From Pocillopora verrucosa (taxonomy: Eukaryota > Cnidaria > Anthozoa > Scleractinia > Pocilloporidae), in contig NC_089325.1 of NCBI RefSeq assembly GCF_036669915.1, positions 16,656,718 to 16,720,717 on the forward strand: 64,000 bases of DNA, in the 5' to 3' direction. The position numbers and the translations under genes are program-made. Positions 7,009-56,107 of this stretch are shown piece by piece. Under the pieces are notes generated by a model. It did not search any database and was not told the origin of the DNA. It saw nothing but the letters and a program-made list of their open reading frames with translations. Each line of letters starts with the position of its first letter. Within the stretch, counting starts at the first letter, position 1.

Positions 7009-7038
7009 CTTGGAAATTTTGACCTCAAATTGGGCCAA
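7009..7038 (+). repeat. Left 30-bp TIR of the 49-kb element
   Basis: The sequence starts CTTGGAAATTTTGACC and ends AAATTGGGCCAA. It is the exact reverse complement of 56078-56107. The left flank ends in CG, which is repeated after the right end. Confidence 0.9.
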
Positions 7039-7087
7039 ACTCTTTCGGCCGCGCAGGGTCTGGGCCCATGTACACAAACAAATCAAA

Positions 7088-7723
7088 ATGGCGTCCCAAA
7101 GTGAGCCTGACCAAGAAGAACTTTTTAATGGGATCAAAGGAGCATTAAAGCGGCAGAAATCGAAATTCGAACGCCAGATTTCAAATGTTCACAAGTTGAA
7201 AGATCTAGATGAGACATTTAACGCACTAGAGAAACTGGCCGAAGCTGTTGTGAAAGGAAAATATGGTCCCCTTCGCTATCGACACGAGCATGAAATCAGT
7301 CATGTATATCCAATGTTGGAACGAACAATGATAATAGCTAAGAATGGAATTAATACACGCCTTACTCCACGGATGAGTAAAATCCATCCTTGGGTGATCT
7401 GTTTCGATGTTCCGATGCCGCAGGAAGTGTTCAGTCTATTAAACAAAGGGATCGTAAATCGCACAAGTTATGGTGTAGATGTTTCGGAGAAACCCGGTTC
7501 AGTGACAATAACATTCACAAATATGAGAAGACTGTGTGCTTTGTTCAATAAATTTGAGGACTGCGAAGCATTTACAAAGGAGCTAGGAGCTGGAAAAGGG
7601 GTGGTAAAACTTATTGTTGACGACAGGAAGAATGGAATTATGAGATACAAGTTTAAAGAGGAAATTTTACAATTTAATTTCCATTACGGGTACTGGAATG
7701 CATTTGGCATCATTCAGCATTGA
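7088..7723 (+). CDS. Conserved-looking protein of unknown function at the left end of the 49-kb element
   Basis: This intact 211-residue ORF starts at ATG 7088, in the context AAATCAAAATGGCG, 49 bp inside the TIR. The same frame is open further upstream to 6968, but that part crosses the TIR into the YqaJ gene and is not real. The N-terminus (MASQSEPDQEELF) is acidic. A helical, Lys/Glu-rich part follows (ALKRQKSKFERQ, ALEKLAEAVVKGKYG), then a mixed alpha/beta C-terminal half (HPWVICFDVPMPQEVF, GSVTITFTNMRRL, GVVKLIVDD). I recognise no domain and no catalytic motif. Its position mirrors the large gene at the other end, so it may be a transposition or DNA-binding partner; that is inference only. 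Confidence 0.65.
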   Translation: MASQSEPDQEELFNGIKGALKRQKSKFERQISNVHKLKDLDETFNALEKLAEAVVKGKYGPLRYRHEHEISHVYPMLERTMIIAKNGINTRLTPRMSKIHPWVICFDVPMPQEVFSLLNKGIVNRTSYGVDVSEKPGSVTITFTNMRRLCALFNKFEDCEAFTKELGAGKGVVKLIVDDRKNGIMRYKFKEEILQFNFHYGYWNAFGIIQH

Positions 7724-10700
7724 AACAGGAGCAGTTTGTTTTTCCAGTATTGATTGGATGCAGTGGTACATTCTTAAATTGTAATCGAGTCGAGACAACA
7801 ACATATATGTAATAGATATTATATTTATGATTTTATACACTTCTAACACAATTGTGGGTACATTAATTGTCTTATATGTTATTGTTGCAATGCCCTCAGT
7901 GGAATTAAAATATAGAAAAGGGGAACAGTCTCTGGCAGACCCCTAACAATAAAAATTATTCTCTTAAGGAAACTATTAAGCAGATTTACTAACAACACTG
8001 TACATTTAGAATATTCGTTACATTTAGAATATTTTTGACATTTATTATAGTTATAATTACATTTATATTCTTAATTAATTTAAATTTAAATCTGTATTTG
8101 TAATTGTATTGTGTTTAGCTGAAAAACCCTTTCTAGGGAGCATCAATAAAAGTATGTATGTATGTGTGTGTGTGCGTGCACCTTTGCACACCTATGGGGA
8201 CATTCATATGAATACACACCAGCAAAGTGGGGTCTGTTCAAATTGTGGGGACATTTTCAAGTCCCCACAAAAAAGTCCTCATAAATACGTTGTAATAAGA
8301 GAAAAGACCATCATAGTGAGGACTTTTTTAATGGTCCTCATAAGTCGGTTCGTATAACACACATCTTGAGTCCTCACAAGAAGGTAAAAACACAGAACCT
8401 GGAAAAAAGTTTTTTTGTGTCCTGAGGCACATGAAGAAGTGCCCAAGAAAACCATTAAGATACTTAGATTAACGAAAAAATCATATTTTAATGGTTTACA
8501 CACTCAAATTCTTCATAACGTACACACACTGTGTGTATTCAGATACACACAGTGCCTGAGTGATACTAAGAATTTCAGAGTGTACTTTGTTAAAAACTGT
8601 ATTCTTTACATTAATTCTTAATGTAAGTATCTTTATGACTTTTTTAGAGCACCTCCTAAGGTGCTTTATGGCTAAAAAAATTTTTCCAGTCTTTTGTTTT
8701 CTCCCTTTTTGAGAGGAATTAAGGTGTGTGTTCTCCGAACCAAAATAAAGGGACTCTTCGGGAGTCCTCATTATGAAGGTCTTATTTCAAAGAATTACCC
8801 TCTAAAGAACACAAGCACCACCCATTTTCTTTGATCAGGTTTTTATACTGAGGTGACACAGACTCTCAGACCCAAAAAGAACATCATCAAAGTCTCATTA
8901 TTATTATTATCATTTTTATTACTGCTAGTTCTCTTTTGGCAGAAGAGTTATCTTACCAAGGGATTTTGATTGTGCATGGAATCCTCTAAAGAGCTCTATC
9001 TAGTGCCTTTTTGATAGAACTTAACAATATATGTAACTTTATGGCTTTTTTGAGCACCTCTAAATGTGCTTATTGCTTCTTATAAGTTCCCTTATGTATC
9101 ATTCTTTCAGTACATCCAGTAGTGCCATGTCCAATCAGAAGATGTCTGTCTATTAGCAGAACTTTGAGTAATGTGTGGGCTGTTCTACACAGAGACATAT
9201 CATATTATGTCAGTCACCAGATTATGCAATGACTTAGAAAAACTGACAAAGTAGATGTTATGGGACCAAAGCTGTGTGGCACAGAATGCTGTACCAATCA
9301 CTGATTAGTTTTGTCACTACCAACTAATTCAATTTTCATCAAGGAAAATGATCTTTCCCTTGACTCCAAAGTGTTACCCTAAACTACAGTGAACACCTTT
9401 CACAGTCCTTAGGAAACAGATTGAACTAGATGCACTAACATATATAAAACAATGGCTCACTCATTTACATTTAGGCCATATATATTAGTACTGATCTTGC
9501 ATCTTTTAACTCATCTATGGCCCCCAAAAATACATGAAATTGACCACACTGTGTTTTCATTTTTTTACCTCTACATGTATTTATAGCAATAAGGCCCTAC
9601 ATTATCTTACATTAAAGTGTATTAAAATAAGAATTTCAGAAAAATTAGCATTAATTTGTTATCATATTTCAGGAAAAAAAGATTTTTCATCAAAATGTCA
9701 GTAATTATTATGAATAATTATTATGAAGTAATACAAAATTGATCCTCCAGATGTCAGCCACATTCCTGAAAATTTGAAAGGAGAAAAGTAAATTCTAAAT
9801 CTTTTCACAAAATTTTCATGTTTTCCAATATCAGTCAAACCCTTACTAGGAAGAAATATTTTTGGGAAAAATGGGGGTGTGTCAGCATGGGAGCAGGTTT
9901 GAAGTGTTACTAAGTAAATAAATATGCCCTCCACTATCCCTGCTAATCAATAGGAGGTCTCTTTGGCAAAACTAGCATCAAAACACAACTATCATAACTC
10001 ATGACTGACAAAGTTAAAATGAATGCTGCAAAGTGGCTTTTATGACATTCTTCACTTCTTTTTTTTTTTTTCTTTTTTTGCATCTTCAATTATTTTGTTT
10101 TTTTGTCTCTTCTTTGGTATTTCCTTTGAGTAACAAAACATCTAAAACCATTGACAGTGATTAAAATGGGAAATATTTTTTGCAAAACAATAAGCTATGA
10201 CACTCTTCGGTATGACACAATGCAAAGCAATTTCAATCATTTCTAGCATGCACTTCCAGGCACTATGGCAAAACCAAACTTTTAAATATCCCCTTTTCAT
10301 TTTATGATACACCACAAAGCATATGTTGTTCCCAGAGAAAGCTGAAATACTCCTAAACTCACTTTGGGTTTGGTTAGGAAATATGAGGAGCAGTGGGCTT
10401 AGTATTCACAGATGATAAATCATTCTCAGGGAATTCACAAAACTGTCTCACAATGTCCCTGGGGAAATGAACCGAAGTATAATTTCAGGCCTGAATATAG
10501 CACTCTCATCAGAAAAATAAACCTGATGCTCTTTAAAAATACGAGACTACTAACTGCTGGCGAAACAGAACTGGGGGCAGCAGAAGCAGAAGAAATTTGG
10601 GGGTCAACACCAACACATTGAAACAAAAATGTATTTCAAATGAAGTCAACATATCAAGTTCAAAACATATACCCTGATTTACTGCAAAGCCCTATAGAAA

Positions 10701-14924: not shown

Positions 14925-16460
14925 GTGACACTACAGAAGATTAAAACACCAAAAAGGAATCATCCGTTAAGCCACAGAGATATAGTTGAGATGATTATGA
15001 AATTAATATTCCTCCCTGTGAACTGGAATCTTTTATTCGGGAAAATGAATGAACTTAAGTCATCAGTGACCTCATGGATAAGCTTCCTGATCTCCATTTC
15101 CGTGAAACAAGTCTTAAAGAGGAGTGGATTTTTCTATACTGCATCACTGCAACAGCTAAGCTCGGTCTCTTAGGAAAATCAGGATTGGTTTGATGACAAC
15201 GTCGTGGAAATAAACGAACTCTTAGAGTAGAAACGTAAGCACTTTCTTGCCTATCAAGTCAGCGCAACATCAGTATCGAAATGAAAGTCTTTATTGCCTG
15301 CAATAGTAAACTCAAGAGCATCTCAGAAAAATGCAAGACATCTGGCTACAGGCGCAGACGCCATCCCTGCGTAAATATGAAAGGCAGGTAATAAAATAGT
15401 CACCCAAAATCTGTGTGAAATGTTCTCATCCTTTTGGAGAAAAGATGTTCTATCTCAAGACTTCAATAAGGCTATCATTGTCCAATTGTAAGAGCGAGGA
15501 AACAGGCAGTCCTGCGACAACCACAAGGGAACACCGTTACTGCCGTCAGTTTTAGGCAAATTCCTTGCTAGAGTCATGCCTAATCGACTCATCAAACATT
15601 TGCAACAAGGTCTCCTGCCCGCGAGTCCGTGCAGCTTTCGAACGAGCAGCAGCGGAACAGTACATGTGATATTTACAGCTCGTCACTTTATGAGAAAATC
15701 CAGGAGTAACACTAGGACCTCTGTACCACCTTTGTTGACCTGACCAAGGTGTTAGACACGGTCAGTCGTGATGATCTATAGAAAGTCATTTCAAAGCTAG
15801 ATGCATCTCTATTATCATCACCATGATTGGAAAGTTTCTTAGTGAAATGATGGAACTTGTAAAATAGTGAGGTGTGGAAATATTTCCCGGTCAACAATGG
15901 CTTGAAACACGTATGTGTTCTCGCCCAACCTTCTTCTCAATGATGCTCTCAACAACGCTTCCAGGTGCATTCTCACAAGGTGATGCAGGCGTAGAAACTC
16001 GTTATAGAACTGATCACATGCTTCACAATCGTAGACGACTTAAGGAAACACTTGAGGTCAGTCTTACCACGATCCGTGATCTAAATTTTGCAAATGATTG
16101 TGCACTGGATAGTAACTGTGAAGAACAGATGCATCATGGCATGAACTCTTTGGGCACAACCTGTTAGAACTTTTGATTCACCGCACGTACCCACCAGCTC
16201 TGAGAAGCAATACAACTAACCTTACAGTCATTTAATTGGCACAAAACTCCACGCAATTGTAAAGTTCACCTATCTTTAAATTGCAGACCGCTGTCCATCA
16301 GCTCGGCGTACGGTAGACTTCGCCTGACTGTATAGGGACGCAGGTAAATCTCGACAGGTAGAAAACTCAAAGTCTATAAAGCTGGACAGTTTACAGCAGG
16401 TAAGCAGCCAAATTTAATCACATCCGCGCAACAAGCCTCCGAAATGGTTCATTGGTTCAA
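14925..16460 (+). pseudogene. Decayed LINE endonuclease-reverse transcriptase fragment
   Basis: Pieces of a non-LTR reverse transcriptase can be followed on the plus strand across several frames. In order: QDWFDDNVVEI near 15180, HLATGADAIPA near 15340, LPSVLGKFLARVMPNRL near 15550, and TSVPPLLT/TFVDLTK near 15720. Then come RMCSRPTFFSMMLS (15910-15950) and NFANDCALDSN, a mutated A/DD catalytic box, near 16090. The downstream KFTYL motif is near 16260. Frameshifts, stops and missing segments show it is long dead. The order matches the common invertebrate endonuclease-RT LINE family; clade not assignable by eye. Confidence 0.7.
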
Positions 16461-17548
16461 CTAAACAGTCGAACTAGCGAAACAGTTGAACTGTACAAAT
16501 TGCACAACCTATCTTACTTAGTTAAAGTAGTTCAAGTGATCAAACTAGCTTCAATTGTTCAACTGCACAAACTGCACAATCTAGCTGAATTGGTTCAGGT
16601 AGTTAAAACAGTTAAACTAGCGCAATTGGTTTACCTGGTTAAATAGTCAAACTAGCGAAAACAGTTAAACTGACAAATTGCACAATCTATCTTAACTGGT
16701 TGCAATAGTTAAAATGCTCAAACCTGCTTAAATGGTTAAACTGAAAAAAATGCATAAGCATCTTATAAGGTTCAACCTCACAAACTCCACAATCTACCAT
16801 AATTGGTTAAAGTAGTTAAAATAACCAAACTAACTTAACTGGTTGAATAACTAATTGGTTGAAGTAGTGCAAATGATCAAACTAGCTTAAATTGTTCAAC
16901 TGCATAACCTGCACAAACTGCACGATCTAGCAGAATTGGTTCTGCCTAGAAAGTAGTTATGTCATTTCTGCGAACTGATTCGAATGCGGACAGTCAAGTA
17001 GATATTTCAGTGTACCACTGGTTATTTTGCAGTCACGGTAAGATATCAAGTTTTCGAGAGCACATGGTCTGTTTTGAGTTTAAGTTTTAGTTTCTGCTAA
17101 GATTGTCGAACAAGATTTCATTTGTTATTAGCGGGACAAGACACAAATAACTTGTACTATTCGATCGTTTTTGTTTAGCTTTCTTATCCTTTGTGACTCG
17201 GTTATTTTGCTTTATTCAGCGGATTTATGCATTTGATTTCAGTGAATCGTTGTTCATGTAATAAAAAGAGTTTACAGTTCAGCGCAATTGGCTCAACTGG
17301 TTAAATAATCAGCGAGCGAAGACCGTTAAACTGAAAACAATTGAAAAATATATCGTAGTTGTTTAAAGTAGTTCAAATGGTCAAACTAGCTAAATGGTTT
17401 AACTTGAAAATATGTACAATTAGCTTAAATGGTTCAACTGCACAAGCTGCACAATCTAGATTCAAATACCTAAAATAGTCAAACTAACGAAAACAGTTAA
17501 ATTGCACAAATTTCACATTCTATCTTAATTGGCTAAAGTAGTTCAAAG
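16444..17548. repeat. Short-word satellite, blocks 1 and 2
   Basis: Blocks 16444-16945 and 17281-17548 are built from variants of GGTTCAACTGCACAAACTGC, GCACAATCTAGCTTAATTGG and TAGTCAAACTAGCGAAAACA. Units are irregular, about 20-25 bp each, and combine into longer composite periods. The intervening 16946-17280 is unrelated unique-looking sequence. The apparent protein at 16452-16646 is only translated satellite. Confidence 0.75.
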
Positions 17549-18562
17549 GGGGGATTTAGGATTTTCGGTTTTGCAGTTTTGGCTACGTTTTAGATCGGTT
17601 TTTTGGTTTTTGTGCCAAAAAACTTCGTTTTTTCGGTTTGGTGGTCATTGCGGTTTGCGGATTTTCCGTTTTTTTAGCATTTTGTTTTCGGTTTTCGGTT
17701 TTCGCAAAAAATACTAACTGGTTTTCGGCTTTGATATCCGATGCAGTTTTCGGTTTTTCCAATTAGACCTATTTGGGTTCCGGTTTCTCTTCGATCTGAG
17801 CGGCAACTACGCGCCTCCACTAATCTCGAATAGCCGCTAAACGCAAATTTTATCGAGAGGAATGAGTGACAAACCAATTGAAATATCGCAGGGATCCCTA
17901 GGTAGCTGACGTGTAGCCGTACCCTCCCCCTCCCCTGAGGTGGGGGGGGGGGAAGAAGGGAGGGTACGGCTACGCGCCTGCACGTAGGGCACGGCTAAGC
18001 ACGGATCATTTCCAAAGTTTCTTTATCAACGCCACCTCGAAGTTGGTGACCAAGTTACAGGCCATACGTGACTGATTGATTCAACATTCCAATGGAATCT
18101 CCAAACTTTCAGGTCTTAATTCGCGAATGGACATGTTAGATCAGGGATTTTTGGTGAAACTTTCCAGAGCTATAGCTTTTTGCGACTGCAAAATTGCAAT
18201 CCTATGAAGGGCTTTTGTGCGAATTTCCTTAATTTAATTAGGCTCCATTACCAGCTGCTGAGTCCGCAGAGACCACGTTTGAGGTCCTCGAGAGCGCAGC
18301 TGTTAATTTAAGCAGATACTAGAAGATACGAATGCCAAGTGCATGGTATTCATGGTCCTGTCATGAGATTAGTGTAGTTTGCTCTGTACGCTACACTTGT
18401 CATCACTGTATCGAAACGATCAGGGTTTTAATAACTGGGATGTGAAAGTGTATCGATTTTGACAGTTTTGCATGCCGTTTTCGGTTTTGATCGAGTTTTT
18501 TTTCGGTTTTGGATGATTTTTTCTACGGTTTTAAGGTTTCTAATGGGCCCCAATGCCCTCCT
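17549..18562. other. TTCGGTTTT-rich insert with hairpin, inside the satellite
   Basis: The flanks (17550-17760 and 18470-18540) are rich in GGTTTTCGGTTTT words, as if one low-complexity element had been split. A perfect 15-bp hairpin, GTAGCCGTACCCTCC at 17913-17927 and its inverse at 17959-17973, encloses C- and G-runs. No gene is apparent. Confidence 0.5.
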
Positions 18563-19450
18563 CAGTTCAAATGGTCCAACTAGCTCAAATGGTTCAACCG
18601 GAGGAAATGCATAACTAGCTTAAATGGTTCAACTGCACCAACTGCACAATCTTGCTTAATCGGTATAACTAGTTAAAATAGTCAAACCAGCGGAAAGAGG
18701 TAAACGGTATCGGAACAATTCGCCCCTCAAACAATTCGCCCCAATTTTTAGACAATTCACCCCCAATGTGAAAACACCGAGTCAGTCAACCGAATCATTC
18801 ATGCTCATCGTACATGAAACAAAGCTATCTACGGTCGAATTTATAAGTATAATAAGGGCGAACGCGTTCTCGCGCGTCTAAAACCGAAGAACTGAACACG
18901 TATCACCATCTTACGCTCACGCGATTGACGATCAGTAAATTATTTTGGTTTCGGTTGACTCGAGTAGTCGAGTTTTCTTTTTCTTTCAAGAAATGATTGC
19001 CTTGTGACAAAAGCTATATTTTCTACAATAATTTGGGTGTTTTCACATTGGGGGTGAATTGTATTGAAATTGGGGGCTAATTGTCCGGGGCGAATTGTCA
19101 GACATTCGAGGTGAACTGCACAAATTGCACAATGTATCTTAATTGGCTGAAGTGGTTCAAAATGGTCAAACTAGCGAAAATGACAAAATGCGTAACTAGC
19201 TGAAATGGTTTAACCAGCCAAAATTCATAACTGGCTGAATCAGTTCAACTGCGGAAACTGCTTAAGTCACCTCAAATGATTCAACTGGTTACATAGTCAA
19301 ACTGGCGAGGATAGTTTAACTTCAAAAATTGCACAATCTATCTAAAATGGTCTGACTACCTTAAGTGCTTCAACTGGAAAAAATGCATAACTGGCTTAAT
19401 AGGATCTACTGCACAAACTGCACAATCTAGCCTATTTGTTCCAACTGGAA
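18563..19450. repeat. Short-word satellite, block 3, interrupted by a MITE
   Basis: The same GGTTCAACTGCAC / CAAACTAGC words as at 16444 occur at 18563-18706 and 19111-19450. A separate inverted-repeat element sits between them. Confidence 0.7.
18713..19102. mobile_element. MITE with GGCGAATTGT-type inverted ends
   Basis: Left-end words ACAATTCGCCCCTC, CAATTCGCCCC and CACCCCCAATGTGAAAACACC recur as their reverse complement at 19040-19102 (GGTGTTTTCACATTGGGG... GGGGCGAATTGTC). The arms are about 65 bp and the total about 390 bp, with no coding capacity. It is inserted in the satellite. Confidence 0.65.
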
Positions 19451-19513
19451 ATAGTTTGATGCTACTCTGGTTTGCAGATTTAATGAATGTAACCGAAAAA
19501 GTTACAATTCATA

Positions 19514-19553
19514 GACCCAACGTTTCGACACTCCTGTCTAGTGCCTTCATCAG
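19514..19553 (-). ncRNA. Hammerhead ribozyme-like core of the Penelope-like element
   Basis: On the minus strand CTGATGA (19553-19547) is followed by a six-pair stem II, GGCACT/AGTGTC, then GAAAC (19526-19522) and a GTC cleavage-site triplet (19516-19514). Penelope-like elements are known to carry hammerhead ribozymes with very short stem III in their terminal repeats. Stem I is not obvious here, so activity is uncertain. Confidence 0.55.
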
Positions 19554-19667
19554 GGGTGATCTAAACGCTGCAACAAGAGGTCCTATTATATGATCACTAA
19601 TTAGCGGCCTTTTTTTTCGGACGAGGTGTAAATAGGCGTCAGGTAGCAAACCGTCACGGTCACGATT

Positions 19668-20027
19668 TTAAGGAGCGTGAGCGGAGTTAATATGCCAAGC
19701 CTCCAAACAAAGGCGCTGGTGGTAACGCCGATTAGTGGTGATAATTTTAGAATTATCCCACCCAATTGTATGGTTAGTTAGGCATGTATGCTCCGATAAA
19801 GCTGAATTTTCCTTTTTGCAAAGGAAAACCGCTTTTTGGTGCTCTTTTAACCGTGTACCAAACTGACGTTTGGTCTGTCCGATGTATTCGCTGACACAGT
19901 CATTGCAAGGAATAGAATAAATGGCGTCGGTTCGTTGTTCTTTCGTGACAGGATCCTTAGGTTTGGCGAAAATATGCCCCAAAGTCTGAAAAGGTTTTTG
20001 AGCAACTTTAACGTTGTGGCTATTCAA
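19668..20027 (-). pseudogene. Penelope-like GIY-YIG endonuclease fragment
   Basis: The 119-residue frame contains AIYSIPCNDC, the GIY-YIG-like EYIGQTKRQFGTRLKEHQKA with its Arg/His helix, and LSEHTCLTNHTIGWD, typical of the endonuclease domain that primes Penelope-like retrotransposition. Upstream frames on the same strand hold the reverse transcriptase. The preceding sequence is shifted or stopped, so this is the C-terminal part of a dead polyprotein. Confidence 0.8.
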
Positions 20028-20399
20028 AATTCTCTTGATGGGTTCCGTAACACCCTGTATATAAGGAATAAAAGCAAAACCAGTCGCTGGTTCCCTTGCG
20101 TCAAGAGCGTTACTGTTTGTAACTGATTTTTGGCAGTTACGGGGAAAAGTTTTTGTATGGCCATTTGCCTTTAGGACATTGGAAACATATTTCCTCTCCT
20201 CAGCCTTCGAATCGAGTGAAGATGGTAGACAGTCAGCCCTCCTAAGTAAAGTTTTGGCTACAGACTTTTTATGGAAAACAGGGTGGTGAGAATCGAAAGC
20301 GAGGTATTTGTGAGCGAGGTGTGGGTAGGTTTACAGTAAACACTTGTCTCTAAATTACCCTGAACACATTTAAACCAAGAAAGGGAAAATGTCTATCCT

Positions 20400-21513
20400 T
20401 TTCACGCTCAAGGGTGAATGGGATCGACGGCTCTACTGAATTCAAATGCGACAAGAGGCGCTCCGCTTCATTTCCAGATATCGCAGGAATAACATCATCG
20501 ACATATCATTTCCAGAAAAAGGGTTTAACCGGTGAAGTGGCTAACGCCTTTTGTTCCACGTCTTCATTACCATGTTAGCAATGACAGCAGAGACGGGCGA
20601 ACCCATCGCTGTACCAAAAACTTGTTGATAGTAGGCGCCGTTATATGTAAATTGCGTGGTTTTGAGGCAAAAAGACAGCAGATGACTAATATCCTCCACA
20701 GGCAAGGAAGTTCTTTGTCCCAGGGAAGCATCTTCTCTGAGTCATTCCTCCGCAACCTTGACGGCAAGATCAACTGGGATTTTGGTGAAGAGCGAAACAA
20801 CGTCTAAAGATACTAATTCTTCACAAGTGTTAAGAGTTTTATCTCTTATGAAATCCGCAAATTCGCAGGGATTTTTGACAGAGTAATCAGTATTCCCAAC
20901 AACAGGCGACAAAATTATCGCAAGATAACCAGAAATTGCATAAGTCGGAGAATTAACAAAAGAGACAATGGGTCTCAAAGGAATTGCCGGTTTATGAATT
21001 TTAGATAAGCCATGAAAACGTGGACATAAGCCGTCACTACTGTATAACATTTTGTACGTAGAGTCACTAATGATACCAGCTTTTTTCAAATCAAGCAACA
21101 TTTTGTTTAACTTTCTTTGAGTTTTACTGGTAGGTAGGATCAGAGTTAAAGACAGCATACGTACTCTTGTCATTAAGCAGAGACAAAGCTTTGTCGTGAT
21201 ATTGCTGTTTGTCCATAACCACAACACAATTACCCTTGTCCTCAATTACGAGCCTGTCCGGATCCTTTTTGAGAGCTATAAGCGCATTGAAAACATCCTT
21301 TTGAATGTTTTTGGGAGGAGGTTTAGCACGTGTGAGTATGCTTATTACTTCTGCTCTTACCAAATACCTACGATCGTTGTTGAGTTGAGAGATACTCTCA
21401 ACAACGGCGACAATATCGGCAGTCGGTATTTTGCGAGGAGCAATAGCAAACTTCAGACCCTTCTCTAAACCACTCCGTTCCAGCGCGGATAACTCCTTGG
21501 AGGAAAGGTTCAA
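20400..21513 (-). pseudogene. Penelope-like reverse transcriptase, broken
   Basis: On the minus strand, 21513-21124 gives an N-terminal part (VIEDKGNCVVVMDKQQY). A second frame to 20742 gives PRFHGLSKIHKPAIPLRPIVS and VSLDVVSLFTKIPVD (motif A), and a further frame gives FGTAMGSPVSAVIANMVM (motif B) near 20590. The YVDD catalytic box is at 20494-20505, preceded by an in-frame TGA where Trp is usual. Frameshifts occur near 21130 and 20740. Confidence 0.75.
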
Positions 21514-21655
21514 GACTCATTTATCTCTCAGAGATGAGCCTGAATTAACAGGAGACCTCTTACTGAGCAAGTGACGGAGTTTTCTGTCGTGTTTCTCTCT
21601 CTGTTTGGTAAACGTCTGCAGTTCTTTCGAACTTCTTTTCGAAATTTCTTTAATT

Positions 21656-22262
21656 TAACTTCAACTGCTTAAATGGTCAAACTTGCGAAAACAGTTAAAC
21701 TGTATAAAATTCATAACTAGCTTAACCAGTTCAACTGCAGAAACTGTTAAAGTTGTCTCAAATGACTTAACTGGTTACATAGTCAAACTAGCGAGGACAT
21801 TTAACTTCAAAAATTGCACAAGCCACCTGAATTTGTTGAAGTAATCCAAATGGTCAAACTAGCTTAAACTGTTCAACTGGACAAACTCCATAACTAGCTT
21901 AAAAGGTTCAATTGCACAATCTAGCTTAATAGGCTCGACTGGGTGAATAGTCAAACTAGCGTAGGCAGTTAAACTGCACAAATTGCACAACCTACCTTTT
22001 TTGGTTGAAGTAGTCCAAATGGTCTAACTAGCTTAAGTGCTTCAACTGCACAAACTGCACAATCTAGCTTAATTGGTCCAACTGGTTAAATATTCAAACT
22101 TACAAAAACATTTAAACTGCACAAATTGCACAATCTATCTTATTTGGTTGAAATAGTTTAAATGGTCAAACTAGCTCAAATGGTTCAACCGGAAAAAATG
22201 CATAATACATTTGGTTCAACTTAAATTGAATGCAGATGGTTCAATTGCACAAACTGCACAAG
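21656..22262. repeat. Short-word satellite, block 4
   Basis: The array continues after the Penelope-like insertion with GCACAAACTGCACAATCTAG, TTAATTGGTCCAACTGG and TGGTCAAACTAGCTTAAATG variants. It ends at the Harbinger remnant. Confidence 0.75.
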
Positions 22263-39511: not shown

Positions 39512-39523
39512 AGGTTTCTCTGT

Positions 39524-39841: not shown

Positions 39842-39881
39842 GGTTTTTTTCAATGTGTGGACTTTATCTTCCTTGCCTTTT

Positions 39882-40622: not shown

Positions 40623-40684
40623 GACAAAATACTAATGAAAAAACATTGTTTTTTATTTATATACATAGTCATGTCACAAAAGTT

Positions 40685-41227
40685 TTAAGTATCCAAGTCA
40701 CAGGTTTTTTCATTGCTTTGTGCTTTTCGTTTCAGAGTATGGACTCGCCACCCTAACAAAGGTCGGATCATTTCACCTACCAAATGATCGTTGTAGACGT
40801 AATCCCTTTTGTTAAATACGCTTATGAAATCCTGCATGCTTTGACCTCTGGCTTTAGCTTTCAAATACATCAATGCATACTGGCCACACGACTGTGAGTT
40901 CAATTCTTGTAATGTCGTTGCGTTACTGCGCACGATTGCAAAATTTTCGAAAATCCAGTTCACTACAGCAGATGGCCTGTACCACCTTAACGGTAATCCA
41001 TAACTGTCCATGACTTCGCAAGTGTGTTTTTTGGTGAAAATAGCCAACCAATGAGATCCGGGTTTATCGCGGGGGTCGGTGTTGACGATGTAAGCTCTTC
41101 TTTTCCATAGTTCTGGTAACGGTGGTAATGCATCGGCTGCAAAGACGCCTGCGAAAATAGGTGCTAGATAGGGATCTTGTTTGGCGAGATACGATAATTG
41201 TTCTGTAGTAAATGGAACGAATTCCAT
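40685..41227 (-). CDS. Adenovirus-type cysteine protease
   Basis: The 180-residue ORF has the C5/Ulp1-type catalytic set: His59 in GSHWLAI, Asp74 in MDSYG and Cys114 in NSQSCGQYAL, with the upstream Gln112. In adenovirus and Polintons this enzyme matures capsid and core proteins during assembly. The length fits the family. It is immediately downstream of the capsid fragment (9-bp gap) and upstream of the ATPase, the usual morphogenetic cluster. No lesion is seen. Confidence 0.92.
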   Translation of the reverse strand: MEFVPFTTEQLSYLAKQDPYLAPIFAGVFAADALPPLPELWKRRAYIVNTDPRDKPGSHWLAIFTKKHTCEVMDSYGLPLRWYRPSAVVNWIFENFAIVRSNATTLQELNSQSCGQYALMYLKAKARGQSMQDFISVFNKRDYVYNDHLVGEMIRPLLGWRVHTLKRKAQSNEKTCDLDT

Positions 41228-41236
41228 ACCCTCTTT

Positions 41237-42016
41237 TCAACCCTGATTTCTTCCGGCCAGGGTCTGGCTGTAAATGTCGTACTGAGTACTTCCTGTGGGT
41301 TTTATTTGCATCATGTTTTCGAATTCCCCGTAGATGATGACGGTGACTAATGAATTGACAGCTCCCTTGGTCAAAGATATTTTGACACGTCCTTCTTGTT
41401 TGGGGTTCAATTGTACACTGTCTGCGCAGCCAGAAGCTACGTTATCCCACATGTATAAGGTGGTATGGTGATCATCTCCCCAATGTTCTGGTTTGATCAT
41501 ACATCTTCCTCGGAAAGCCGAACAATTGGCACTGAGAAGTCTGTGGTAGCCTGCCATGTCTAGTTGTCCATTGTTTCCATTCAGTTCTAGGGCTTGATAG
41601 GGGTACTCTTCTCCTTCCACAATCTGTTTCATACTAGTGACTTCAAATTTGGGAAAATTGAAAGGGTTGTAGGCGTAATTGCCAGAGAAAGCCTCTTGAT
41701 AGACCAATCCTACCACCACACGGTCTGGGACTCTTCCACTGAACACGTCTGTAGCTGTAAAGGTTGTGTGATCGTTTTGCAAGGTATAGGTCCTGACTTC
41801 CGAACGGACGGTGGGATAGAATACTTCTCTGTTGTTTTTGAGTCTGGCTACAGCGATTTCATTGTAGATGTCTGACCTGACTTTAACCATGCACGCATAG
41901 AATTTCATTTTCAAATCACCGGCTTGTATTATAGGTCTACCTCCGTATACTGAAGGTAGTAACGAACGTATTCTGATTTTGTTGCATACAAGTATAACAT
42001 GACATGTCTGAAACAA
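41237..42016 (-). pseudogene. Major capsid protein, C-terminal fragment
   Basis: The 259-residue open frame contains NPFNFPKFEVTSMKQ, LLSANCSAFRGRCM and VTVIIYGEFENMMQI, blocks I associate with the C-terminal jelly roll of Polinton/adintovirus hexon-like major capsid proteins (many annotated as F54H12.2-like). The known protein is roughly twice as long; homology-like sequence begins about residue 18 (RSLLPSVYGG) and the N-terminal half is missing. The break coincides with the central AT-rich block that also truncates the polymerase. A penton-like minor capsid identity is less likely given its place beside the protease. Confidence 0.65.
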
Positions 42017-42718
42017 AGATCACCCATGACCTTACACAAACGACAAGTGAATAATGGATAACATCTGACTATTTGGTTAATGGCGCTTTTAAAAAACAGA
42101 ATTAGATACAATGAGGTAGTTTCCATCTAGAAAAAATACAGAAAGATACAAAAATTATCATATGGAATCAATCCGCTCATTTGGTAAATATAAAAATAAG
42201 TATTAAAATATCGAAATCGAAGTTTGTGAAAGTCTATTCAGCAAAATTATTCCAAAATCGGTATGAGTTATTGCAAACAGAAGTAGATACAATGCGGAAG
42301 TTTCCATCTAGAAAAAATACAGAAAGATACAAAAATTATCCTATGGAATCAATCCGGTCATTTGATAAAGATAAAAATAAAACCAAGGACTTGTTTCAGG
42401 ATATACACCCATCTGAAAAAAATAATTATACCGATATAGAAGTTCGTAAGAGTCTATCCAACAGGATTATTTCAAAATCGGAATGAGTTATTGCAAAAAT
42501 ACGCATTTCACGGCGAAGACGTTCTAGAGTTGATTCAGAATAATGACGAATTGTTTCATGTAAATGAAATGCAAAACATAAATATCCTTTTAGAACTGGA
42601 GTAGCGACCTAAAACGAAGAATGATTACCGTTATTATTGTCAAAATAATACATATTACGCTTGCTATGAATAAACGGTCAAATTGCTGATCTAAGAAAAA
42701 ATAACGAGTGGAATATAA
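42017..42718. repeat. AT-rich block with imperfect tandem duplication, at the Polinton deletion junction
   Basis: A unit starting near 42094 (AAACAGAATTAGATACAATG) is repeated from 42275 (AAACAGAAGTAGATACAATG) with small differences and an insertion of about 40 bp. Both copies end in GAGTTATTGCAAA (42265, 42485). The second copy can encode a Lys-rich peptide (SRKNTERYKNYPMESIRSF). After a one-base shift it continues into HGEDVLELIQNNDELFHVNE to a stop at about 42605. It sits exactly where the N-terminal parts of the capsid and polymerase genes should be. Confidence 0.65.
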
Positions 42719-45028
42719 TTGGAATTACCCAACCTCAAATTCATCGACTCCATGAACTTTTTTCCCATGGCACTGTCCAACTTCCCTAAAACATTCGGAC
42801 TCAATGAATTGAAGAAAGGCTTCTTTCCACATTTCTTCAACACTCAACAAAACCAAATCTACGAAGGGTACATGCCCGACAAATCCTACTACGACCCCGA
42901 TGGAATGTCCCCTCAAAGAAAAGAAGAATTCCACAAATGGTACAACGAGAAAGTATCCGAAAGATACATTTTCAATTTCCAACACGAACTGTTGACGTAC
43001 TGCCAATCCGACGTAAGGTTATTGAAACAGGGGTGCACAAAGTTTCAGTCCCAGTTCCGCGACATTTGCGGTTTCAACCCCATGGTGCATTGCATCACTA
43101 TTGCCTCTGCCTGTAATATGGCCTACAGAAAAAATTGGATGCCCAAAAACAAAATTGCCATCGAACCCGTACGTGGATGGAGACCGAATCACACCCAATC
43201 TCATGCTGCTCTAAAATGGCTTTACTGGGAAGAATCCAAACTCCACAAAACCAACCATCTGCCTCGAATTGCACATGCCAGAAACAAAGGCGAAAGAAGA
43301 ATAGTCAATGGCACCAAAACCTACCTGGTAGACGGCTACGACGCACAAACACATACCGTCTACGAGTTCCAAGGCTGTTTTCACCACGGCTGTGTAGATT
43401 GCTTCCCAAACCGTACCAAGAGACATCCCATTCATCAGAATAAAACCATGCGTGATGTTCGTCAACAAACACGAACTAAAGTCAATGAACTTACCGCCTT
43501 AGGTTACCACGTCAAAGAAATCTGGGAGTGCGAATGGAATGACATGCAAAAAACCGATCCACAACTAAAAGCGTTCGTCGAACACCTAGACATCGTACCC
43601 CCTCTCCAGCCACGAGACGCCTTCTTTGGCGGTCGCACCAACGCCATAAAACTACACCACGCCGTTGACGACAACGAGAATGAAAAGATCGAATACAGAG
43701 ACATCATATCGCTGTACCCGTGTGCAAATTTGGAATGCAATTACCCCGCCTGCCATCCCGAGTTCATCGACCAACCAGGAACCACAGACATCTCACGATA
43801 CTACGGATTAATAAAATGCAAAATTCTACCTCCCTATGAACTCTACCATCCAGTTCTACCATGGAGGTACGACTCAAAACTCCTCTTCCCATTGTGCAGA
43901 ACATGCGCGCAACAAAACACAGAACGAACCCTCTTAGAAAGAAGCTACAAGTGCCCCCATTCTGCCCAGGAACGATGCCTCACAGGTACGTGGACAACCC
44001 TGGAACTACAGAAAGCCCTCGAAAAGAACTACGTCATCATGTACGTTTACGAAGTCTGGAACTTCCCACAACGTTCCAAGGAACTTTTTTCCCCCTACAT
44101 AAAAACGTTCATGAAACTCAAACAACAGGCTTCTGGATGGCCTTCCGAATGTGACACCGAGGAAAAAAGACAAACCTATCTCGATGACTACAAAGCTCAC
44201 CAAGGAATAGAACTAGATCCCGCCAAAGTCGAAAAGAATCCCGGTCTACGCTCCCTCGCTAAACTAATGCTCAATTCTTTCTGGGGAAAATTCGGACAAC
44301 GCCCTAACCAAACCCAAGTGACCACGTGTACCAAACCGTCCGAATTCTTCCAGATCATCACAGACGACCAACAAGTCGTACACAGAATTGAAATAGCCAA
44401 TGACCAAATGGTAGAAGTGTACCACACCTTTGAAAATGAATGCAAACCCATTCAAACCAACGTCAACATCTTTATTGCATGTTTCACAACCAGCTACGCA
44501 AGACTAAAACTATACGATGCTCTTGATACCCTGAAAGAAAGAGTACTGTACTTCGACACGGATTCTGTCATCTATACCAAGAAACCCACTGAATCGTCCA
44601 TTCCCACCGGAAATTATCTGGGCGAATTCACGAACGAACTCGACGAAGGTGATCACATTACAGAATTCGTTGCTGCTGGACCCAAGAATTACGCCTACGA
44701 AACCTTCAAAGACAACCAATGTTGCAAAGTGAGAGGATTCACCTTAAATGTGCGTGGACAAAAAATCCTCAATTTCAACAGTATGAAAGACTTAGTGTTG
44801 GACGAAATCTTACACGAAGACGACGAGGAAGAACCTCGCACCCTAACGCTTCACAATCCTCACAAGATCACACGATGCGCCGCTACAAAAACCATCCAAA
44901 CAGTGTCCCAAGACAAAACGTACAAACTCGTGTTTGACAAACGCGTCATTGATCATGACACCTTTCAATCTTTTCCATACGGCTATAAATGCACCTCGTT
45001 ACTGATTTCGAATTTATTACAATCATGA
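42719..45028 (+). pseudogene. Protein-primed DNA polymerase B, N-terminal part missing
   Basis: The open frame (769 codons after an upstream TAA; first ATG at codon 12) starts in the exonuclease domain at FIDSMNFFPMALSNFPK (Exo II-like) and continues with Exo III LLTYCQSDVRLL (Asp98). An endonuclease-like insert with VYEFQGCFHHGC (residues 214-225) comes next. The polymerase motifs are A, RDIISLYP (327-334), B, LAKLMLNSFWGKFG (513-526), and C, YFDTDSV (611-617), all with intact catalytic residues. Polinton PolB is usually over 1000 residues; Exo I and everything upstream are absent. The rest is undamaged, so loss came from one deletion rather than gradual decay. The stop overlaps the next gene by ATGA. 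Confidence 0.93.
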
Positions 45029-45387
45029 ACAATACAACTCATGATGATGATGCACTTGACCTCGAACTTTACTCCTGTAAATTCTACGATAAAGACATTC
45101 ACGTAAAACATACCCATTTCCTCATCGTCCCTACAGATAAAGACAATACTACCATCCACATCCATTACGATCTTGATGTTCCACCTAGCAATGAAGCAGT
45201 GAAACGCTGGACACAACAACCATGGTTTCATCATTCTATCATCGAAAAGTACCATTTACTTCAACCGAAACACAGTCTTCCAACATCCAACAAAAATCCC
45301 TTCAAACGATTATGGACCAAGTGGCAAAAAAAAGGTGACAAGGTACATTATCCATCATTCATGTACTCCCAACATGTCGTGGAGTGA
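45025..45387 (+). CDS. Polinton right-arm small protein A (paralogue 1)
   Basis: The ATG overlaps the polymerase stop (ATGA), suggesting coupled or read-through expression. The 120-residue product has an acidic start (HDDDALDLELYSCKFYD) and a shared body: FLIVPTDKDNTTIHIHY, EAVKRWTQQPWF and FKRLWTKW. It is a paralogue of 45483-45803; the two form a tandem pair. I recognise no domain. The longer frame from 44989 overlaps the polymerase and is not favoured. Confidence 0.6.
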   Translation: MNNTTHDDDALDLELYSCKFYDKDIHVKHTHFLIVPTDKDNTTIHIHYDLDVPPSNEAVKRWTQQPWFHHSIIEKYHLLQPKHSLPTSNKNPFKRLWTKWQKKGDKVHYPSFMYSQHVVE

Positions 45388-45482
45388 CACCGGAGTGACA
45401 CCGAAGTGACACCTTTCAACCTTTCCCTATACCTAAATAAATACAACTTCACTACTCATTTATACTTCGCTACAATACAATC

Positions 45483-45803
45483 ATGGTTGGAACGGATGAT
45501 GATGATATCGATCTTGGTATTGATCTTGAACTCTATCGATGTAAATTCTACAGTACAAACAACGAACTACAACACACTTATTTCCTCGTCGTACCTACAG
45601 ATAAAAACAATGCTAGCATCGACATCCATTACATTCCCCATGTTCAACCTATCGACGATGCAGTGAAACGTTGGACACAACAACCTTGGTTTTATCGCTC
45701 TGAAATCGAGAAATTTCAACTCATTTACCCCAAAGGAACTATTCCCGCATCAGGCTTCTACCCCTTCCGAAGATTGTGGACCGAGATGGCAAGAAGAAGG
45801 TGA
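45483..45803 (+). CDS. Polinton right-arm small protein B (paralogue 2)
   Basis: The 106-residue product shares with its upstream neighbour LDLELYRCKFY-like, YFLVVPTDKNNASIDIHY, DAVKRWTQQPWF and FRRLWTEM blocks. The strong conservation of VKRWTQQPWF between paralogues suggests purifying selection on a real protein family. Between them, 45388-45480, is a short spacer with a GAGTGACACC repeat. Function unknown. Confidence 0.6.
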   Translation: MVGTDDDDIDLGIDLELYRCKFYSTNNELQHTYFLVVPTDKNNASIDIHYIPHVQPIDDAVKRWTQQPWFYRSEIEKFQLIYPKGTIPASGFYPFRRLWTEMARRR

Positions 45804-45807
45804 AACC

Positions 45808-46050
45808 ATGACAAGGAGTCACCGAAGAACAAACTACAAAAAAACAAAAAAACTCATCAAAAAACTAAGAGATGACCGCTTTCATCTCGAAAAACATTAC
45901 CAAGAAAAAATCACCACGCTCACTATTCAACTTTTAGATAAAGAATATTATCTCAACTCCATTCTTAACTTTATGAAAGATTATTATCGTTCGCCTTGGG
46001 ATACCGCTGTATACAGAGGTTTCCGAAACATGTGTTTTAATAATCAATAA
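45808..46050 (+). CDS. Polinton right-arm coiled-coil protein
   Basis: The 80-residue ORF follows paralogue 2 by 4 bp. It is strongly basic and helical at the start (RTNYKKTKKLIKKLRDDRFH), with leucine heptads (LTIQLLDKEYYLNSIL) and an aromatic tail (YYRSPWDTAVYRGFRNM). It is the last gene before the right TIR. No known family; a small DNA-binding or structural protein is possible. Confidence 0.55.
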   Translation: MTRSHRRTNYKKTKKLIKKLRDDRFHLEKHYQEKITTLTIQLLDKEYYLNSILNFMKDYYRSPWDTAVYRGFRNMCFNNQ

Positions 46051-46128
46051 AAAACAGTTGAGAGATTTCTTTGTGTCGCATTGCTTTTTTTACTTAATTT
46101 TAAAAAAACCTTTCTTATCCACACGTAC

Positions 46129-46323
46129 ACAGATTCCTATCTCCTCGCGCTTGCAAACCCATTCCACACCCACACGCGCGCGCTCTTTTCACTCGGTACC
46201 AGGACCTCTAGGCAGCTCGTGACGTCATTTTTCAACGTGGCTTCCTGATTGGTCCATATCGGTCACATGGGCTATATACTTGATTCTTATTGGTTGGCGC
46301 TATACTGACTTTCTATTACTACT
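46129..46323 (-). repeat. Polinton right TIR (195 bp)
   Basis: Exact inverse of 36286-36480 except for one visible base. It ends CTTTCTATTACTACT and is followed by ATTAAG (46324-46329), the same hexamer as at 36280. Confidence 0.97.
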
Positions 46324-46379
46324 ATTAAGCTTTTTTTTATTTGTTCCAGTCTTGCCATAAACAAGACTTTCAGCATAAC

Positions 46380-52315: not shown

Positions 52316-52649
52316 AAACTTCTTTGCCTTCTCCAGCAAAAGGAGAGGTGGTCCTCATAAGAGGGGTGTGGAAACAGAGACCCCATAAGTTAGGTAAGTA
52401 TGTCCTCACAAGTCTTATATTAAAAGTAGTACCCACAAGTAGGCAAAGTTGAGTAATGGACAGGTCCCCATAAGGAAGTCCCCACAAGAAAAATTGAAAT
52501 TTCCTCAATTCTAATCAAGTGTATAAAGAGTAAGGCAAACAAGCTATCAAACATCGTAGTTTTTATTTTGATACTGCCAGCAGAAGGGGGGGTCTCCGCA
52601 AGCGGTGTGTGTAAACACAGTCCTCACAAGTTGCCAAAGGTGCGTATGG

Positions 52650-52730
<81 letters not shown>

Positions 52731-52745
52731 TGTGTGTGTGTGTGT
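52316..52745. repeat. GTCCTCATAAG/GTCCCCACAAG MITE-like repeat with (TG)n/(TGCG)n microsatellite
   Basis: Words GTCCTCATAAG, GTCCTCACAAG, GTCCCCATAAGG and CCCACAAG recur at 52330-52630. A TG run and a TGCG tetranucleotide array at about 52646-52745 follow. The Cys/Val/Arg-rich open frame across the microsatellite is translated repeat. Confidence 0.6.
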
Positions 52746-52904
52746 ATGAAAATAAAATTTCTTTCCCGGTTATTAAAATAGGTTCACGCTCTCAGAATTT
52801 GTTATTATTATGAAAATAATTGAGGTAGCCGGAGAGTGTCTGACACATGATCCCAATTCTGTTATTTCTTTGGTACAATGTTTTGACTCCGATTTATAGT
52901 TAGT

Positions 52905-53158
52905 CGGAGACACGGTGGCCTAGTGGTTAGCGCGCTGGACTCCGGATCCAGAGGTCCGGGTTCGAGCCCTGGCCAGGTCATTGTGTTGTGTTCTTGGGCA
53001 AGACACTTTACTCCATAGTGCTTCTCTCCACCCAGGAGTATAAATGGGTACCAGCAAACTGTCAGGGAAACCTGACAATAGTTGCTTCATGCTACGGAAA
53101 CTGGGATAAGCTCTGGCAGTCATGGGCCACTAGGCTTGTAAGACTAAGCCACGACCAA
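52905..53158 (+). mobile_element. tRNA-derived SINE
   Basis: Bases 52909-52979 form a tRNA-like head with an A-box-like TGGCCTAGTGG, anticodon arm CTGGA-CTCCGGA-TCCAG (anticodon CCG) and a B box GGTTCGAGCCC. A body with TTCTTGGGCAAGACACTTTA, common in metazoan SINEs, and TATAAATGGGTACC follows. The acceptor stem is mismatched, so it is a SINE promoter rather than a working tRNA-Arg gene. The 3' end lies near the stop codon of the neighbouring transposase-like gene. Confidence 0.75.
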
Positions 53159-53159
53159 G

Positions 53160-55623
53160 TTAAGACAAGTACTTCAAACACTCTCTAGTAGGCTTTCCCT
53201 CCGCAACAGACTTCTTGATCTCATCCATGAATTTATGACCACATAAGAAACATTTGTCGTCGTGTTCACCTTTGGAAAACCCACAGGAGCAAAAGTGTTG
53301 TGCATCTGTGGTAATGCGATTGTGGATGAGGCTGTCTCTTGATTGATGATATGTCAAGAGAGATGGCTGGCGGAGAGGGAGCCAAAGTTTACTGATGTAA
53401 TCATGCCTGAATACCTGATTCCAGCGGTCTTTATAAAGGCTGTTTCTTGCATAGCTGGCAATTTGAACATGCTTGGCTTCCCTCCCTTGCATGGTGTTCA
53501 CTCCTAATCCAGTTTCATATTTCTCAAATACCCACTGGGTGTGAACTGGGACCAAATGTCCAATGCTCCAAACTGTCCCTGATACAGTGCCTGTGAAGAG
53601 TGTGACTGCTGTGAAGTAATCCCGAGCTAAGACTTTGAGTTCATCAATGGCTGGCTGAGTAATGTGGTACATTGAAAAAATGGAGGCACAATCTCTGAGC
53701 TTCATTGCAATGAAAACAATGAACAAAAGTTTCATAAGCAATTTGGGATCATCTGAATCCCCCCTGATGGCATTCACAAGGTACATAAACCCATGCAAAA
53801 TAAGTCTTGAGTCCTTTCCAGTCAGTCTGTAAGAAAAGTCTTTGTCCTTAGACCTATCTTCCAGCATCCACTTTCCTAGCTGCTTTTTCAAACGTCCAGC
53901 TTTTACATCACACTCTAGTGCCTTCATGTACCTTGACATTGCACATGCTGGGGATAGGTCTGATAGGCTGGAGATCTTCTGTGGGAGGTTACTTGAAGAA
54001 ATTGCTAGGTTTAATAGCATTGTGTAAATGCTGTACCCCATTGTTTTTAAGGTGAAGGGGCTCTACAACCTCTTTATCACACAACTTTCCAATCAGTGGC
54101 TGAAATTCCTGCCTTGATTTATTACTGGCAATAAATTTGGTGATTTTTGTTCTTTTTGTTGAGGCTGCAAGGCTGGAGGGAAGCTTTGCCTTAAAACTTT
54201 CTACCTGTTTGGCAATGTTTAATCTATCTTTGTATGGCCATGGTTTCCACTTGCAATCATTCATTAGCCCAAATTTTCCATTCAGTGTAACACAGTCCTC
54301 TTTTGATACATTTGCAAAGCTGGAAAAATAAGTGGCAGCATTGTTAAGTTCCCCATTAAGGAAAGCCAGAAATTTCATGTCTGAGGGAACCAGTTCAAAA
54401 GTGAAGGTTACTTGCTTCTCTGACACTGTATATGTTTTCTTCTCAATTGCTTCAATCTTGGAGGTTAATTGCAGAGTAAATTGCTCTACACATGGGTGGT
54501 CTTCTTTGCAGTTGGCACCAAATAAAAGAAAATTGTCATTTGGGCTAGCCACTCTTGGCCCAACATTTAAGAAACTCACCAACCAGGACATTGACTCATC
54601 CCACTTCCCAAAGGGTGCTCCATCCCCCCCAATTGCCACTTTAAAGGATCCTTCTTTGTGACCAAACCAATTAAGTTTGTCATTGTCCTTTCTAAATTCA
54701 TTTGTTTCAAAGTAAAATTGACTAAGCATAATTAGCATTGTCTCTAAGTCTCTGTAGACCCCATCAACTCGTTGATCCCTGGGTAAGGTAGTGCACAGTG
54801 TTTCTCTCACTGACAAGGTCTCTCCAACATTGATTTCTTCAATTTTGTGCATGAGAGCACTGTAAGCAAGTGGCCTTGGAATGGGAACTCCAAAGCCAAA
54901 TTTGATTCTCTCCCTTGAAAGATAACCTTTCATGGTTCTTTTCCCAGTATGTCTCATAACCATTGCTGATCTCCCCTGCTGGTATTTTACTTTTCCAATG
55001 ATCCCCCCTGCATACAGTAGAGATAAGGAACGGATGAAATTTTCATTGCTTTCCTCGTACTCCTTCGCTTGAGCATTTATTTTCGTCGCAGCTGCCCTTT
55101 TAAGCTTTTTAGAAGAATCGAAATATTTAGAAATATCAGCCATTTTGCCATATTTGAGAACAGTGGAAAACATTCCATCAAGAGCAGGAGTTCTATCTTC
55201 CACGGAACCTCCGTTCACCTCTGAAGCAGCAATCAGGGTCTCTAATTGCCTTCTGTGGGCACTTCGTCTCGGTAAATTTAATTTACCCTCTCCAGTGAGT
55301 TCAGTTGGGCTTTTTTTCCTACTTGTAGAAGTGTTTTGCAAGATTTCAAATGCTGTCGCACGGCTTTGAGTTGGCGGGGTCACCTCAAGCTCAAGCTGAT
55401 CCACACATTCTCGTATTTTCTCGCCATTTTTTTGTAGGCGCTCTAACTTTTTTCTCAGAGCAGAGAGCTCTTTACTCTTTGACAGATACTCTTTTCGAAG
55501 GGTAGCCCTTTCTCTAGCTAGTTCAGCTACAGGGAATCGTTTCTTCTGCGAAAATGCAAGCGATCTCCGAGGGGTTCTTCTCTTCTTACTTCCCATTGCC
55601 CGATCGCCACGGTCATGGGCCAC
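53160..55623 (-). pseudogene. Large probable transposase of the 49-kb element, one frameshift
   Basis: Two overlapping minus frames (55623-53989 and 54041-53160) make one gene of about 820 residues, with a shift near 53990. N-terminal: basic (KKRRTPRRSLAFSQKKR) and coiled coil (LSKSKELSALRKKLERLQ). Middle: VAIGGDGAPFGKWDES with an Asp-rich core, SWLVSFLNVGPRVAS and LLFGANCKEDH. The C-terminal frame has TGLGVNTMQGREAKHVQIA (a conserved Glu) and a Cys cluster, CSCGFSKGEHDDKCFLCGH. The order Asp, Asp, Glu fits a DDE-type transposase, but I cannot name the superfamily; the family is widespread in cnidarians as I recall. Start could be Met 55596 (MGSKKRR). It faces inward from the right TIR. Confidence 0.6.
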
Positions 55624-56077
55624 AGGCTATTTCCTTTCAATTAAAATTGAGTATTTTTGTTACAAATTTTTACACATATAAAAGCAAAATTATGACCGCT
55701 CAACTCGAAATTATAAACGATCAATATCTCTTCTGTGGTTCTACCGTTTCCTTTTTGAGCAAAACGAGTGCTTTAACATTATTTACCTCCGTTTTTGAAG
55801 TCGACTGAAGACTTATATTTGTAACTGCGATCGTTCTTTGGAGCCCTGTGTTCACTACGAATGCAAAAATCAAGAAATATGGACAAAGTCGATGAATCAG
55901 ATATCAAACTAAAGCTTGAAAGGAATAGATTTTATTTTTTAGCGCCAAACGTTTGTTTTCATTACAAGTCTCCCGCAAACAGGCAAAATAGATGACTCCC
56001 CGGGTCCCTCTGAGTCGCCATGAAAATGGCCGAGCGAAATTTGGCCTTAAAAGGACTGGAATCTAGTGGACATTTCC
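55624..56077. other. Upstream region of the probable transposase, inside the right TIR
   Basis: Holds the presumed promoter. A short minus-strand ATG at 56022 (GGCCATTTTCATGGCGACTC) mirrors the AAATGGCG start of the left-end gene but stops after a dozen or so codons. It could be a first exon or an upstream ORF. Confidence 0.4.
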
Positions 56078-56107
56078 TTGGCCCAATTTGAGGTCAAAAT
56101 TTCCAAG
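56078..56107 (-). repeat. Right 30-bp TIR of the 49-kb element
   Basis: Exact inverse of 7009-7038, followed by CG (56108-56109) as in the left flank. Bases beyond it continue the SAP-SWIM-YqaJ gene. Confidence 0.9.

Follow-up and report, generated by a model that had tools for sequence, protein, structure and literature searches.

The DNA analysed here is a 64,000-bp stretch of the genome of the coral Pocillopora verrucosa (NC_089325.1, positions 16,656,718 to 16,720,717, forward strand), called the window below, with positions counted from its first base. It contains a transposon at 7005-56111 (49,107 bp), bounded by 34-bp terminal inverted repeats (TIRs) and carrying one inward-facing gene at each end. 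The left TIR (CACGCTTGGAAATTTTGACCTCAAATTGGGCCAA; 7005-7038, plus strand) has the same end as the related loci L009-L012, and the right TIR (56078-56111, minus strand) has its outermost base changed, reading CGTC instead of CGTG. An accessory gene encoding 211 amino acids (7088-7723, plus strand) lies next to the left TIR, and a transposase gene (53160-55596, minus strand) next to the right. The perfect 30-bp inverted ends reported in a preliminary description of the window are exact (7009-7038 and 56078-56107), and the inward gene that it placed at each end is present.

Insertion site and terminal sequences

The element is flanked by a target-site duplication (TSD), TGC, at 7002-7004 and 56112-56114. 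Its left flank matched the genome twice, at the window itself and at an empty copy of the site located elsewhere (C14:17388042-, L041). The empty copy holds a single TGC and agrees with the joined flanks at 207/210 bases, which bears out the earlier proposal of an interrupted gene whose halves rejoin and supplies the empty counterpart of the site. It reads ...TTTGTTTGC|TGTAG..., compared with TTTGC-CACG...CGTC-TGCTGTAG in the window. Because the empty site is TTTGC|TGTAG, the duplication is TGC and not CG. The CG flanks of the preliminary description do exist on each side, but since the empty site gives a TGC duplication and ends starting CACG, they are the inner half of the terminal CACG and belong to the 34-bp TIR. 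A target model based on CG or CACGTG was dropped, as both the empty site and the divergent families place 3-bp TSDs outside CACG.

What the insertion interrupts is no host gene but the YqaJ gene of an ISL2EU-like transposon. The gene halves occupy 6001-7004 and 56112-56799 within a recipient element at 3523-57176, which has inverted ends (3523-3616 and 57084-57176) and a DDE_Tnp_4 transposase at 4553-5245. These three parts, transposase, YqaJ domain and inverted ends, suggest the ISL2EU label.

Target duplication was assessed across 12 TIR-bounded copies, four from the close family and eight from 17 fetched divergent loci; TIRs were found at eight of those 17, and the transposase search that led to them gave 63 rows in all. 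Three copies with a changed outer base were kept, and element limits were set at the CAC/GTG position. Flanks matched over 3 bp in 8/12 copies, over 4 bp in 1/12 and over 5 bp in 0/12, against a chance expectation of 0.19 of 12 for a 3-bp match. The termini were CACG, except for CACA in L019 and the three single outer-base changes (CGTC at the right end in the window, AACG at the left end of L026 and CGTT at the right end of L027).

Copies of the element and the origin of its length

Copies were sought in the host genome, 353 Mb in 52 contigs. A 28-mer of the TIR occurred 9 times, and still 9 times with up to 3 mismatches, against 0 for the reversed control, so the repeat is not due to chance. 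The nine places resolve into five copies: four complete (the window, one on C6 and two on C11) and one single-ended on C8. Both genes are present in every one of them beside the 34-bp TIR, as expected of the two-gene TIR transposon that had been proposed from the window, and the refuting case named with that proposal, TIR copies lacking these genes, was not encountered. The complete copies measure 49,107 (window), 4,657, 5,699 and 4,584 bp. A length of 49 kb is therefore not a trait of the family, and the shorter copies with the same two genes that the preliminary description advised seeking are found in the other three (4.58-5.70 kb).

Removing ~8178-52643 from the window copy leaves 4,641 bp, and homology to the other complete copies is confined to 7005-8173 and ~52731-56110. 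In the ten pairwise comparisons among the five copies, substitutions in the two arms amounted to 0.09-0.52% with gaps left out; by BLAST the window arms were 99.3-99.7% identical to those of the other copies. The ~4.6-kb element appears to be recently active.

In the other copies a microsatellite joins the two arms. The window retains it in two parts, (GTAT)n/(GT)n at 8152-8177 and (GT)n/(GCGT)n at 52644-52746 (limits approximate), split by a nested element. The spacer also holds a tRNA-Arg(CCG)-like stretch (52909-52980, plus strand), seen in 5/5 close copies and in 0/4 divergent loci scanned; it is probably the head of an inherited short interspersed nuclear element carried by the master copy.

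The nested element is itself giant (8178-52643 approximately, 44,466 bp here), bears GCACCTTTG in inverted orientation at both ends and stands outside the focal family. Its ends were fixed by genome copies. Its first 1,500 bases gave 12 near-full matches at 92-100% identity (27 rows in all), and its last ~1,480 bases 12 at 89-100% (41 rows in all), the window included in both cases; the remaining rows of both searches were weaker and partial. Nearest ends on one strand were paired, interiors lying outside the reading, which gave seven end pairs besides the window, on C4, C7 (two), C1, C9, C3 and C8. Six of the seven are 34-37 kb apart (C4:16152004-16189012; C7:13719016-13753319; C1:7308654-7344216; C9:22136454-22173314; C3:1765365-1802019; C8:23731623-23768645), and the second C7 pair is ~117 kb apart. 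The ends are 89-98% identical between copies. Without a virus-like element that it contains, the giant element of the window measures ~34.4 kb. At 3/3 loci read (window, C9 and C1) both of its ends adjoin GT repeats, with unrelated sequence beyond. It is thus a separate giant element; the spacer microsatellite of the focal element was one of its GT-repeat sites, and it is possibly a GT-targeting transposon of no recognised type.

The very large cargo suspected in the preliminary description is thus an independent, dispersed element lodged in the spacer microsatellite: the other copies are 4.6-5.7 kb long and the 44.5-kb insert is dispersed by itself. One could still picture a single 49-kb transposon moving as a unit with its cargo between the two genes, as the whole span is bounded by one TIR pair and one TSD. 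That picture is barely credible against 3/3 other complete copies of 4.6-5.7 kb, an insert with seven further end pairs of its own, six of them 34-37 kb apart, and its position between GT repeats in 3/3 copies read. Several large copies with shared ends, a feature of giant cargo transposons, were absent among the complete copies. An assembly artefact joining unrelated pieces would find some encouragement in the fact that both split points fall in a microsatellite, where assemblers fail. We consider it only marginally less remote than the 49-kb unit, because the pieces rejoin at each level (outer direct repeats, ISL2EU-like ends, focal element, giant element) and the giant element has GT repeats around it at two further loci.

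The transposase, its partner gene and their affinities

The transposase frame is open over 822 codons in three of the five copies (L009, L010 and L012) and broken in L011 and the window. The earlier figure of ~820 amino acids accordingly fits those three, but the window has a 535-aa frame from 55596 followed by a second frame (54062-53160). Structure prediction of the large protein gave a confident fold, and all 45 PDB fold matches at E≤0.001 were RAG1, RAG-like or Transib chains. A triad of D334, D415 and E716 is conserved, in keeping with the DDE-type enzyme previously suggested, its catalysis being predicted. The element thereby combines the TIRs, TSD, empty site and conserved DDE-type triad of a cut-and-paste DDE transposon. 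Among 54 members of the family, no conserved C(2)C was found between D415 and E716; histidine occurs at 690 in 24/54 and at 695 in 54/54 members, an H(4)H in part. PF12940 matches numbered 0 in the coral's own genome and likewise 0 in 14 controls, so that this absence is uninformative. Among the best 120 rows of two lists (248 and 176 rows long), nine relatives of the large protein have a named organism: Desmophyllum, two Porites species, Paramuricea, Nematostella, Exaiptasia, Dendronephthya, Actinostola and Montipora, all of them anthozoans. Viral contigs scanned with the large protein (P0001), the DNA polymerase frame, the TIR and profile A1 gave no relative, nor did prokaryote genome contigs scanned with the TIR and profile A1.

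The 211-aa protein is 100% identical in four of the five copies (window included) and 99% in the fifth. It has 47 relatives, 44 of them with precomputed Pfam PF26709. The sole row in a Pfam search of the protein was BppU_N at E 0.035, below the cut-off, with no kelch, and an accessory-alignment search of PDB sequences gave only 9bk1 at E 0.18. Among the relatives, P0121 contains the same protein unchanged, extended at its N terminus by residues translated from the TIR; its flank is unlike that of the window, a sign of a further insertion.

The two genes form a convergent pair in 5/5 close copies, one of them single-ended. Accessory-gene matches in the genome (19 rows, 17 loci) had a transposase match beside them at 12 of 17 loci, each time in tail-to-tail orientation, with the insert lying between the two in the window. 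A local search of 17 divergent transposase loci found the accessory gene at eight, and these eight have the tail-to-tail arrangement too. Profile comparison supported partner homology in pieces of L019, L027 and L030 (probability 92-97%) and found none in the N-terminal piece of L019 or in L022 and L024. Both genes belong to the focal element, and their conserved pairing suggests that the accessory protein is a cofactor. Searches among CC-licensed PMC papers listed none that describes the pair in its title or in the opening of its abstract.

The loci L022, L024 and L032 (C6:8518974, C11:10350540 and C7:23519445) form a divergent branch at ~25% identity, with TIR CACGGTGGTTCGTTGC and a length of ~5.0 kb. 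The convergent frame in L022 and L024 has 192 or 239 codons and is possibly a swapped partner.

We conclude, with a probability of roughly 0.88, that the focal element is a ~4.6-kb cut-and-paste DNA transposon whose two genes, for a DDE transposase of RAG1 fold and for an accessory protein, lie tail to tail, and that nested insertion brought its copy in the window to 49 kb. Several observations weigh against this conclusion. The RAG1 link rests on the predicted fold, as neither RAG1 nor Transib was matched at the level of sequence: Pfam rows of the 54 members at E≤1 included no transposase family and no RAG1, and a PDB-sequence profile search at E≤10 returned no RAG1 chain. The exact 3-bp TSD is absent in 4/12 copies (L011, L024, L019 and L027), the first of which is one of the four close copies, and movement itself was not observed. 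Five of the 17 accessory-gene loci had no transposase match beside them, 9/17 divergent transposase loci gave no accessory gene in the local search, and the convergent frame of families L022 and L024 was not detectably related to the 211-aa gene. Because the structure model of the accessory protein is poor (pLDDT 49.6), the role assigned to it is a guess.

An ordinary RAG-like (RAGL/ProtoRAG) or Transib transposon, belonging to a previously known coral type, would share the predicted RAG1 fold with its DDE triad, TIRs starting CAC and, for RAGL, two genes tail to tail between them, and RAGL transposons are reported from corals (PMC9435367). The TSD given for RAGL and Transib in PMC7204232 is 5 bp, whereas the focal family has 3 bp and a 5-bp match in 0/12 copies. 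Its RAG1 sequence family went undetected in the Pfam and PDB profile searches, its partner is a 211-aa protein without a kelch match in place of a RAG2-like kelch partner, and C(2)C is not conserved between the second D and the E; compared with Transib, it also has a second gene. We therefore regard membership of these groups as improbable. P elements make 8-bp duplications, and their fold Z lies far below that of RAG1.

EnSpm/CACTA elements offer a closer comparison at the ends. EnSpm has 5'-CAC..GTG-3' ends and 3-bp TSDs and is placed in the CMCT clade of Kojima 2025 (PMC12730594); these ends and TSDs fit the focal family (8/12 copies with the 3-bp TSD, three copies with one outer base changed). 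By eye there is also an xPxH motif, EPLHLKNN resembling DPMHNLFLG of the genome's own EnSpm protein. The focal lineage could thus already stand in Repbase as EnSpm, Chapaev/Chapaev3, Mirage or Lanisha with its second gene unmentioned, an explanation that we find doubtful, though far less so than a RAG-like or Transib identity. PF02992 (Transposase_21) was found in 0/54 members, C(2)C is not conserved, and the genome's own EnSpm loci (PF02992, 28 rows) lie by eye at other places than the 63 transposase rows. In hhalign, one EnSpm protein of the genome aligned to the family profile with a probability of 1.2% and E 0.042, which is not significant; five shuffles gave E 0.17-0.53, and a 25%-identical member gave E 7e-55. 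The wider CMCT clade (EnSpm-Mirage-Chapaev-Transib and kin) accommodates the 5'-CA..TG-3' ends and a TSD of 2-5 bp, but its shared C(2)C motif was not found. The preliminary description had placed the gene pair outside known superfamilies; this holds at the level of sequence, where no Pfam transposase family was recovered, and not for the predicted fold, which is that of RAG1/Transib, or for the CAC..GTG ends and 3-bp TSD, which fit the EnSpm-Mirage-Chapaev-Transib group.

Compared with Pfam, PDB and one EnSpm protein, rather than with Repbase, the focal family is best interpreted as a new lineage of RAG1 fold that has an accessory gene of its own. It may even represent an undescribed superfamily of animal DNA transposons, with a RAG1 fold too diverged for a sequence link to RAG1, Transib or EnSpm and an accessory gene acquired independently of RAG-like elements; we hold this tentatively, at somewhat less than even odds. 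What is new is the combination of a predicted RAG1 fold with a conserved, unrelated, tail-to-tail partner gene.

By its predicted fold and by the RAG/Transib group, the transposase would bind and pair both TIRs, cut just outside the terminal CAC with its D334/D415/E716 triad, and join the ends so released to the target with a 3-bp stagger. By analogy with RAG2-like partners, the 211-aa protein would most likely aid the transposase in end or target binding or in assembling the paired complex. The 49 kb of the window copy arose as a distinct element of ~34.4 kb entered the spacer (GT)n tract and was entered in turn by a 10-kb virus-like element.

RAG1 and RAG2, the builders of antibody genes, are thought to derive from a two-gene transposon (PMC7204232). 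Were the focal family an independent superfamily, a RAG1-type recombinase with a convergent helper would have arisen more than once, and the 211-aa family would be a second, unrelated answer to the role of RAG2. Why a RAG1-type recombinase needs a partner is an open question for which a second two-gene lineage is a natural comparison, testable in cells, combining a predicted RAG1 fold with an unrelated partner, a target step of 3 bp in place of 5 bp, and open genes in near-identical copies. The case also shows that RAG1-type enzymes missed by sequence families can be picked up by structure prediction.

Nested and neighbouring elements

Open frames in the giant element are few (six of at least 130 codons), and a complete transposase belonging to it was not recognised. 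It contains a DDE_Tnp_4 fragment at 23130-23702 and long diverged repeat arrays at 16445-22234 and 25949-31165; at 19671-20330 there is a weak match to GIY-YIG (E 0.02), Penelope-like by eye. Beyond the 9-mer, its inverted ends gave a local alignment score of 33 against a shuffle maximum of 37, which is not significant. RTGRGGAC was rejected as a motif specific to the insert ends: of its 31 occurrences in the window, 8 fall in 8194-8771 and 5 in 52358-52627, against 17 in other parts of the insert and 1 beyond it. A tandem arrangement was seen on C8 (C8:23768645-23768776), where the right end of one copy lies ~130 bases from the next left end in the same orientation.

The virus-like element within the giant element occupies 36281-46328 (10 kb) and has 200-bp inverted ends (99%), with TTAA at both outer borders. 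Its frames include a DNA_pol_B_2 and a PLA2-like one, as well as protease-like and ATPase-like matches below Pfam cut-offs; an integrase was not recognised in the frames searched. It has 75 DNA match rows in the genome at 65-88% identity.

On either side of the ISL2EU-like transposon lie retroelement pieces at 1278-1511 and 59759-59973, 1846-2853, and 57132-58157. They have a Phage_integrase domain, direct repeats on both sides and an RNase H match that is weak (below cut-off at E 0.071), and are probably a DIRS-like tyrosine-recombinase retroelement split by the ISL2EU-like element. The split pieces point to nesting at least five deep, from DIRS-like through ISL2EU-like, focal and giant to virus-like element. 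Frames for a reverse transcriptase of the long interspersed nuclear element type (RVT_1, zf-RVT) lie on the minus strand at 61126-64000.

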